A stretch of 64,000 nt of DNA, from contig JAKAGT010000006.1 in assembly GCA_021825585.1 (NCBI GenBank), positions 1 to 64,000 on the forward strand, written 5' to 3'. Position numbers and translations under genes: made by a program. Shown piece by piece: positions 59,359 through 62,648 of the stretch (the stretch's first letter is position 1; each line of letters opens with the position of its first letter). A model generated the notes under the pieces. It was not told the DNA's origin, searched no databases, and saw only the letters and a list, made by a program, of their open reading frames with translations. Source of the DNA: Bacteroidota bacterium (GTDB lineage Bacteria > Bacteroidota > Ignavibacteria > Kryptoniales > JAKASW01).

Positions 59359-59462
59359 TGGTCACCGCCCCATCTGATCCGGAACATTCATTCTTCCTCT
59401 ATCGTATCCCCAGGCTTGAATTTAGCCGCGAACATTGGTATGTTCTCGTGGAGGTTGAGTCA

Positions 59463-62400
59463 GTGAATGCGATTAAGAAGGTCGTGCTTCTCACAGCGTT
59501 CTTCACCAGCGCCGCATGCTTCGCGCAGGTGGACGAGTTTGGAAGAAATAAGGTCCAATATAGATCGTTCGATTGGTATTTCATCCAATCGAAGCACTTC
59601 GATATATACTTCTATCCCCAGGAGTACTACCTGGCTGAGTTTGCGGCGAAAGCTGCCGAGTCCGCATATGAATCGATAAGTTCGGATTTCCGGTACGACA
59701 TAACTAACCGTATCCCGATAGTAGTTTATTCTTCACATAACGATTGGCAGCAGACGAATGTCGTGTCTGCATACATGGAAGAGGGCATGGGTGGGGTAAC
59801 CGAGTTGTTTAAAAACAGAGTGGTTGTCCCTTTTGAGGGATCGTACCAGCTCTTCCGCCACGTCATCCACCACGAGCTCGTTCACGCCGTGGTCAACGAC
59901 ATGTATTACGGCGGGTCTATCCAATCGGTCATTGCCAACAACATTACGCTCCAGCTCCCGATGTGGTTCAACGAAGGCCTTGCCGAGTATGAGTCGTTGC
60001 GATGGAATGCCAGCTCGGATATGTTTATGCTCGATGCGACAATCAATGAGAACTTGGTTCCCATAGACCGGCTGTACGGCTATTTCGCTTATCGGGGCGG
60101 GCAGTCAGTATGGTGGTACATCTCCAGTAAATACGGAGAACAGAAGATTTCCGAGATACTGAGCCGCATCAGGACGACACGAAGCGTGGAGCAGGGTTTT
60201 CGTAGCGCACTCGGAATAGATCTGAAGGAGCTTTCCAAACGGTGGGAACATGAACAGAAAGTACTTTACTGGCCTCAAATTGCCGAGCGAAAGCGTCCCG
60301 AAGATTTTGCGAAACGGCTGACTGACCACAAAGAAGCCGGGGATTTCTATAATACCAGTCCTGCCATCTCTCCACAGGGGGACAAGATCGTCTTCATATC
60401 CGACCGCGACGATTACATGAGTATATATTTGATGGACGCGACCGACGGAAAGGTAATCAAGAAACTGGTTGACGGTCAATCGAGTAAGAATTTCGAGGAG
60501 CTGCACCTCCTTACTCCCGGCCTGACCTGGTCACCCGACGGCAAGAATGTAGCCATCGCCGTCAAGAGTGGTTCTCACGACGCGGTCGCAATCATCGAGA
60601 CGGAGACCGGGAAGGTCAACGAGATTTCTTTCGATAAACTCGACGGCATATTCTCCGTGTCATGGTCTCCGGATGGCGGAAGACTCGCCTTCGTCGGAAA
60701 CACGGCGCGTCAATCGGATATCTATTTGTACGATCTCAAGACAAAAGCGCTGGCAAATTTGACAAACGACGTATTCAGCGATTCCGACCCGAGCTGGTCC
60801 CGGGACGGAGGGACTGTCTATTTCGTGAGCGATCGGGGAAAATACCTTATGAAGAACGACATCCCCGGCAGTTTCAAGATGTGGAACCATAATTTCAACC
60901 AGGCCCATATCTATTCGGTCAGTGTCGCCTCGGGAATCGTTGAACGACTGACGGATTCTGAAATCGGCGAAGAGAGCTATCCCGCCGCAGCCCCGGACGG
61001 GAAACACCTGTACTACGTTTCCGACAAGAGTGGGGTCTCGAACCTTTACTGCCTGGACCTCACGACGAGGAAGAGCCAGCCGATGACGAATTCGATCTCC
61101 GGCATATATCAGTTCTCTCTTTCAAAAGACGGATCGAAACTCGTCTTTTCAAGCCTTGACAACGGCGGCTTCGATATCTTTCTACTCAAGGCTCCCGACA
61201 GCCACCTCTTGACGGATGACAAAGTCCCATTGACCCAATTTGCGAAGATGGAGATGGCGGAAGTTACGGTGACCGGACAGAAGAGTACTCTTGCGGAAAA
61301 GCAGAAGGATCTGGCTGTCGAGAGGAGGGCGGTCCCCGATTCTGTCGCGGTCGATACTACGCAGGTGAAGAGCCTGTACGGGAAGGATGTACAAGTCGAT
61401 TTGAGCAACTACGTGTTCGGGGAAAGCTCAAAAACCGACAGCTTGTTTTCGGTACCCAGCTTCAGCGACAACTTTAACGTAGAAGGAAATGTAGACAGTT
61501 CGGGAAACTTTCTCGCGCAGAAATATAAGATTGCTTTCACACCGGACATCATATACGGAAATGCCGGATACAATAGTTTCTTCGGAGTGCAGGGGACGAC
61601 GTTGATGGCTTTCAGCGACATGCTGGGCAATCATCAGATATTCCTATTTACGGATCTGGTGATCGACTTGAAAAACAGCGACTTTGCTTTTCAGTACAAC
61701 TACCTCCCTTCGCGTATCGGGTATTCCATTACCGGGTCTCATATTGCACGTTTCTTATATCTGAGTTCTCCTTATTACAGCGGGTATTATGATTTGTACC
61801 GCTTCCAGAGTTACGGCGTCTCGCTTGCCGCCACTTATCCGCTCGACAGGTTCAATCGGCTCGAGACCGGTATCAGCTGGCTGAGCCTTACGCGCGAGAA
61901 TATCGATGAACCGTATGAGCCATCGCAGAACAGGGTATTGTTCGTCCCGGCTCTGAGGTACGTGCACGACAACTCGTTCTTCGGATATATTGCCCCGATA
62001 AACGGTTCGCGTTATTATGCCTATCTCTACGGGACACCGAAAGTCGGAGAGCAAGGGATAAGCTTCGTGACGGGGATGATCGACTTTCGCGACTATATCA
62101 GACTGTCGGGGACGCTCTATACTTTTGCATGGCGATTATTTGCGGGTACATCGACCGGTTCGAGCCCGCAGAAATTCTTCATCGGCGGGATGGATAACTG
62201 GATCAACGTGAGATTCGACGGCGATTTCATTCCGATCAAGAATGCTGAAGATCTCGAATTCCTTACGCCCGTCGTCCCTATGCGCGGTTATAATTACAAC
62301 GCGAAATTCGGAAACAACTTCGCGCTGCTGAATATGGAACTCAGATTCCCGATGTTCGGCTTCCTTAGTGCGGGTCCGATCCCCCTTTTCCAGTCACTCT

Positions 62401-62648
62401 TCGGAACGGCGTTTGCCGATATCGGATCGGCGTGGGGGTACGATTGGAACAACAACTATGTCAGTTTTCAGGCGTTCGACCGTGACAACAAAGGAAATCT
62501 GAAAACGAGGGATCTCCTCATCGGGACGGGGTTCGGTGCGAGGATGGTCATCCTCTACTTCCTCGTCAGGCTGGACATCGCATGGAACTTCAACATGCAG
62601 CACTTCTCAAGACCGCAGTACTACTTCTCGCTTGGATACGATTTCTAG
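59463..62648 (+). CDS. metallopeptidase + PD40/TolB propeller + outer-membrane barrel fusion protein
   Basis: 1061 residues from GTG 59463 (GGAGG at 59450-59454, 8 bases upstream; GTG 59448 is less likely). A signal peptide (KKVVLLTAFFTSAACFAQ) leads into a gluzincin domain. RHVIHHELVHAVVNDM has the HExxH zinc site at residues 137-141, and WFNEGLAEYE gives a third ligand near Glu171, as in peptidase-MA-like enzymes. Residues 300-590 form a TolB/PD40 beta-propeller (SPQGDKIVFISDRDDYMSIY, WSPDGGRLAFVGNTARQSDI and repeats). From about 680 an aromatic beta-barrel runs to the last Phe (FSLGYDF), like BamA/surface-antigen barrels. It is thus a predicted outer-membrane anchored protease with a propeller as binding module. 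Confidence 0.82.
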   Translation: MNAIKKVVLLTAFFTSAACFAQVDEFGRNKVQYRSFDWYFIQSKHFDIYFYPQEYYLAEFAAKAAESAYESISSDFRYDITNRIPIVVYSSHNDWQQTNVVSAYMEEGMGGVTELFKNRVVVPFEGSYQLFRHVIHHELVHAVVNDMYYGGSIQSVIANNITLQLPMWFNEGLAEYESLRWNASSDMFMLDATINENLVPIDRLYGYFAYRGGQSVWWYISSKYGEQKISEILSRIRTTRSVEQGFRSALGIDLKELSKRWEHEQKVLYWPQIAERKRPEDFAKRLTDHKEAGDFYNTSPAISPQGDKIVFISDRDDYMSIYLMDATDGKVIKKLVDGQSSKNFEELHLLTPGLTWSPDGKNVAIAVKSGSHDAVAIIETETGKVNEISFDKLDGIFSVSWSPDGGRLAFVGNTARQSDIYLYDLKTKALANLTNDVFSDSDPSWSRDGGTVYFVSDRGKYLMKNDIPGSFKMWNHNFNQAHIYSVSVASGIVERLTDSEIGEESYPAAAPDGKHLYYVSDKSGVSNLYCLDLTTRKSQPMTNSISGIYQFSLSKDGSKLVFSSLDNGGFDIFLLKAPDSHLLTDDKVPLTQFAKMEMAEVTVTGQKSTLAEKQKDLAVERRAVPDSVAVDTTQVKSLYGKDVQVDLSNYVFGESSKTDSLFSVPSFSDNFNVEGNVDSSGNFLAQKYKIAFTPDIIYGNAGYNSFFGVQGTTLMAFSDMLGNHQIFLFTDLVIDLKNSDFAFQYNYLPSRIGYSITGSHIARFLYLSSPYYSGYYDLYRFQSYGVSLAATYPLDRFNRLETGISWLSLTRENIDEPYEPSQNRVLFVPALRYVHDNSFFGYIAPINGSRYYAYLYGTPKVGEQGISFVTGMIDFRDYIRLSGTLYTFAWRLFAGTSTGSSPQKFFIGGMDNWINVRFDGDFIPIKNAEDLEFLTPVVPMRGYNYNAKFGNNFALLNMELRFPMFGFLSAGPIPLFQSLFGTAFADIGSAWGYDWNNNYVSFQAFDRDNKGNLKTRDLLIGTGFGARMVILYFLVRLDIAWNFNMQHFSRPQYYFSLGYDF

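Follow-up and report, generated by a model that had tools for sequence, protein, structure and literature searches.

A predicted Omp85-superfamily outer-membrane protein carrying a putative zinc peptidase and a TolB-like propeller on one chain

Domain architecture of the fusion protein

The window (the whole 64,000-nucleotide stretch of DNA analysed) encodes at 59463-62648 (+) a protein that we read as an outer-membrane member of the Omp85 superfamily, in which a propeller and a zinc gluzincin peptidase replace the usual POTRA domains and would face the periplasm, with a role in outer-membrane biogenesis, homeostasis or quality control; we hold the chances of this reading to be about even. The frame is open and uninterrupted across 1061 codons, giving a product of 1061 aa, hereafter the fusion protein. 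The start given in the earlier note, GTG 59463, is supported by a GGAGG motif (59450-59454) 8 nt upstream. That note had also joined three modules in this single chain (zinc peptidase, TolB-like propeller and barrel), and between them Pfam, NCBIfam, AlphaFold and Foldseek support all three. The features are as follows.

59450..59454 (+): Shine-Dalgarno-like GGAGG, 8 nt before the GTG start (sequence)
59463..59525 (+): predicted Sec signal peptide, residues 1-21 (...AACFA|Q), a hydrophobic stretch (sequence inspection)
59568..60332 (+): Peptidase_MA_2 (gluzincin-like) domain, residues 36-290 (Pfam, alignment, model, fold match)
59871..59885 (+): HELVH zinc-binding motif, residues 137-141 (alignment conservation)
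59973..59975 (+): Glu171, predicted third zinc ligand, in a NEGLAE motif (alignment conservation)
60333..61202 (+): TolB-like PD40 beta-propeller, residues 291-580 (Pfam, NCBIfam, Foldseek)
61203..61532 (+): linker, residues 581-690, variable and mostly of low confidence, POTRA not detected
61533..62645 (+): Omp85-type 16-strand barrel, residues 691-1061, last residue aromatic (YFSLGYDF)
62280..62291 (+): MRGY, residues 940-943, the Omp85 loop-6 RG motif, strands 11/12
62412..62426 (+): FADIG, residues 984-988, an Omp85 FxDxG-type motif

A lipoprotein was considered and rejected, Cys19 having no lipobox and not being conserved.

A conserved zinc site in the peptidase domain

Pfam Peptidase_MA_2 matched residues 81-262 above its cut-off (E 1.5e-12). 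H137, E138, H141 and E171 are invariant across 19 aligned homologues with identity down to 38%, and all four catalytic residues (His, Glu, His, Glu) are retained in 96 of 104 full-length homologues (92%). Among homologues with an intact site, the peptidase is the most conserved domain of the protein. HExxH as a chance motif was rejected given its invariance in the 19 aligned orthologues and its retention in 96/104 homologues. The catalytic residues that had been called intact from the window, HELVH 137-141 and Glu171, are thus preserved widely, and loss of the zinc ligands is confined to one clade. Modelled on its own (residues 22-292, pLDDT 79), the domain matched gluzincins in Foldseek, namely M9 collagenases and M1 aminopeptidases (E 1e-4 to 1e-3, probability 1.00). 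No genuine relative turned up when PDB sequences were searched with the peptidase profile, so the gluzincin fold rests on Foldseek. With HExxH, a downstream Glu ligand and this modelled fold, the domain can be placed in peptidase clan MA; zinc binding and proteolysis are predicted from its sequence.

The propeller and the Omp85 barrel

The fusion protein matched Pfam PD40 (E 9.5e-27), and NCBIfam returned TolB propeller models as well as BamA/Omp85 barrel models over residues 771-1061, all under curated cut-offs; the Omp85 matches had E 1.6e-6 and 6.5e-6. Pfam Omp85 matched 2 of 19 orthologues (best E 2.5e-10), and a paralogue from the source genome (contig C33) scores over the Omp85 cut-off. 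HHalign gave no match between the barrel profile and BamA of the same genome.

An AlphaFold model of the whole chain, built from 19 sequences (mean pLDDT 73, pTM 0.65), places 16 barrel strands at residues 692-1059 with medium confidence, and puts MRGY (940-943) in the loop joining strands 11 and 12, which is the usual place of the Omp85 RG motif. Searching with this model in Foldseek retrieved TolB (E 1e-13), BamA (1.6e-10) and TamA (1.5e-9). The motif residues are well kept among homologues (R941 in 108/110, G942 in 104/110 and D986 in 103/110). By its 16 modelled strands, its loop-6 RG and its FxDxG motif, the C-terminal region is predicted to be an Omp85 barrel, and the barrel that had been proposed for it from sequence is also what AlphaFold predicts; barrel closure and zinc geometry are presumed. 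No POTRA domains were found in Pfam scans of the protein, and some Omp85 subfamilies in the survey by Heinz and Lithgow likewise begin with other domains than POTRA or lack an N-terminal domain (PMC4104836).

A clade without the zinc site

The eight of 104 full-length homologues without the zinc site (L097, L102, L103, L105, L116, L134, L135 and L141) form one clade (SH-aLRT 99) spanning families f22, f28, f37, f39, f40, f41 and f48. Its members have lost most or all zinc ligands and share the same architecture. The barrel motifs are present in seven, and the eighth, L116, is covered by incomplete sequence. Judged by these sequences, the clade looks like a set of pseudopeptidases in which catalysis was lost once and the scaffold retained. 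The existence of these eight homologues indicates that proteolysis is dispensable in some lineages, and the preservation of Omp85 motifs even where the peptidase is dead suggests a function for the barrel beyond anchoring. With such a natural set of pseudopeptidases, the contribution of catalysis can be put to the test.

Distribution and paralogues

Relatives of the fusion protein were found in each of the 61 close-set genomes and in 193/296 genomes across the phylum, and Calditrichota carry full-length relatives at 38-45% identity. This occurrence points to an old and widespread architecture, not a recent local fusion. Four full-length copies are present in the source genome (G000): the protein described here (contig C77), a second copy at C86:90350-93472 (47% identical to it), one on C33 (34%) and, more distant, one on C13. 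Most genomes of the genus have this second copy, at 43-47% identity to the protein described here. One further version, L096 (genome G063, family f26), lies in a 1530-aa open frame that is about 450 residues longer N-terminally.

Gene neighbourhood and TamB

In the source genus the gene order is S41 peptidase, DUF3108, hexapeptide protein and fusion protein. In 13 of 28 sampled families (f4, f6, f10, f12, f13, f17, f19, f21, f24, f34, f35, f50 and f55; loci L145, L149, L150, L152, L153, L155, L169-L176, L178, L182-L184, L186 and L188), TamB, RNase R and the fusion protein are encoded consecutively on the same strand, the last two frames being spaced from a short overlap up to about 130 bp. RNase R was identified by NCBIfam, and TamB was called from Pfam TamB/AsmA-type matches for several members together with a profile built from five. 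RNase R and the fusion protein adjoin without TamB in f27, and the genes upstream vary between lineages. The cluster has been lost from the source genus; TamB of the source genome, which matches the TamB profile at 3e-186, is encoded on contig C3, distant from the fusion gene.

The distribution of TamL differs between classes. Outside the class of the source genome, TamL is nearly universal at E<=1e-60; inside it the fusion protein is universal, and among the matches listed TamL at this threshold occurs in one genome only (G049), where it is paired with TamB. The source genome has a weak TamL-like protein, whose best stretch scores 101 bits against a cut-off of 400. A simple model in which the fusion protein replaces TamL was rejected for the other classes, where both occur. 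A TamL-like Omp85 gene without an adjoining TamB is found in f24, f34, f35, f50 and f55. In other classes, at L189-L195, TamB does not adjoin the TamL-like Omp85 gene, whereas Bacteroidota have been described with TamL and TamB as a pair. A second TamB lies elsewhere in some f34 and f50 genomes, and Pfam detected TamB elsewhere in f35 and f55; there may thus be more than a single TamB module.

Proposed role and alternative explanations

The barrel would anchor the chain in the outer membrane, with the propeller and peptidase hanging in the periplasm, by analogy with the N-terminal domains of studied Omp85 proteins. There the propeller would probably recruit a client or partner and the peptidase could clip envelope proteins where the outer membrane borders the periplasm. 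We would place the protein in homeostasis, biogenesis or quality control of the outer membrane, where it likely works with the TamB-type bridge whose gene adjoins its own in many lineages. We infer both the topology and the TamB partnership. An outer-membrane anchor with periplasmic soluble domains, as in the earlier note, draws support from the barrel model and from the precedent of PlpD, a patatin-Omp85 protein (PMC11116518). The same analogy leaves the surface location also suggested there unsupported, since PlpD retains its enzyme domain in the periplasm (PMC11116518). The protein processing or quality control proposed in that note fits, and the TamB cluster makes a role in outer-membrane biogenesis more specific.

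The TamB cluster suggests that the fusion protein may partner a TamB-type bridge. It may be a dedicated outer-membrane partner, standing where TamA or TamL stands in a TAM-like bridge and using a propeller and a peptidase instead of POTRA domains, a reading that we advance tentatively. It is favoured by the TamB-RNase R-fusion order in 13/28 families, by the TamL-like genes that lack a neighbouring TamB in five of these (f24, f34, f35, f50 and f55), and by the near absence of TamL at E<=1e-60 from a class in which the fusion protein is universal. The partnership step is weakened by the intervening RNase R and by the absence of the cluster from more than half of the sampled families; with a cytoplasmic enzyme between them, the linkage of the two envelope genes could be housekeeping. 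The second TamB of f34 and f50, the weak TamL-like protein of the source genome (101 bits, cut-off 400) and the inconstant upstream genes also count against it. A stronger version, which strikes us as rather speculative, is a peptidase-armed TAM-like machine: across much of the phylum TamB would have the fusion protein, and not TamA, TamL or BamA, as its partner in the outer membrane, which would couple proteolysis to the inter-membrane bridge; in one lineage the scaffold would later have outlived catalysis.

The protein may instead be a general protease of the outer membrane, maturing or degrading other envelope proteins without any particular connection to TamB or BAM and with the barrel as a mere anchor, a possibility that we also entertain with reserve. 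In its favour are the intact, conserved zinc site, the presence of the gene in a source genus that lacks the TamB cluster, and the four paralogues in one genome, which suggest several substrates; the Omp85 mechanistic motifs, preserved even where the peptidase is dead, count against it. The dead-site clade, which retains the architecture without most or all zinc ligands, could be taken to mean that the peptidase domain serves chiefly for binding, with catalysis secondary, but all four catalytic residues persist in 92% of homologues and we consider this unlikely. Export of the peptidase to the cell surface through the barrel, as once proposed for patatin-Omp85 proteins (main text of PMC4104836), appears very improbable, given that the PlpD enzyme domain stays periplasmic (PMC11116518) and that a folded propeller would need to pass through the barrel.

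Relation to described Omp85 systems

The earlier note overstated the novelty of the joined modules, as a propeller-Omp85 subfamily was named in 2014 (PMC4104836) and the three-module protein is common across the phylum. In the main text of that survey, Heinz and Lithgow (2014) list WD40-Omp85 as one of ten Omp85 subfamilies, uncharacterised and likened to a BamA-BamB fusion (PMC4104836). Having, like this subfamily, a TolB-like propeller N-terminal to an Omp85 barrel and no POTRA, the fusion protein is probably a WD40-Omp85 protein. It may differ in its N-terminal peptidase, which the main text of PMC4104836 does not mention for WD40-Omp85. A 2024 paper still regards the WD40 and metalloprotease Omp85 types as not well characterised, and places the PlpD enzyme domain in the periplasm (PMC11116518). 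PlpD resembles the fusion protein in carrying, on an Omp85 barrel, an enzyme domain that faces the periplasm, a topology predicted for the latter, but has a patatin-like and a POTRA domain and neither a propeller nor a zinc peptidase.

Two multi-protein systems are also comparable. TamA and TamL, which with TamB form the TAM, likewise have an Omp85 barrel and are genetically linked to TamB, a linkage that for the fusion gene holds in 13 of 28 sampled families, with RNase R in between, and not in the source genus; but they have POTRA domains and lack the propeller and peptidase; as no POTRA domains were detected in the fusion protein, we did not file it as TamA or TamL. A 2015 study of TAM evolution noted a noticeable group of bacteria with TamB and without TamA or TamL, and weighed BamA, TamA and TamL as partners (PMC4494059); we found no mention of WD40 in its text. 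BepA or YcaL with BAM and BamB likewise bring a zinc peptidase and a propeller to an Omp85 barrel, and the BepA metallopeptidase acts at BAM (PMC13067283). These are separate proteins, however; BepA belongs to peptidase family M48, and the propeller of BamB is of another kind.

Our literature search, whose coverage took in few subscription journals, found no description of a peptidase-propeller-Omp85 fusion, including Peptidase_MA with PD40 or Omp85, and no experimental work on any member of the family. The fusion itself is partly known through the WD40-Omp85 subfamily; new here are the zinc-site conservation with its pseudopeptidase clade, the TamB-RNase R-fusion cluster, and the universality of the fusion protein where strong TamL is nearly absent. 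The family is a conserved candidate TamB partner for a whole class. To our knowledge, this would be the first Omp85 barrel shown to share its chain with an intact HExxH peptidase. PF00149 bears the Pfam name Metallophos, and we take it to be a phosphoesterase family. The main text of the 2014 survey describes its 'Metallo' Omp85 subfamily as a metalloprotease-Omp85 fusion, yet defines it by PF00149 (PMC4104836), whereas the fusion protein has an HExxH peptidase in place of that Metallophos domain.
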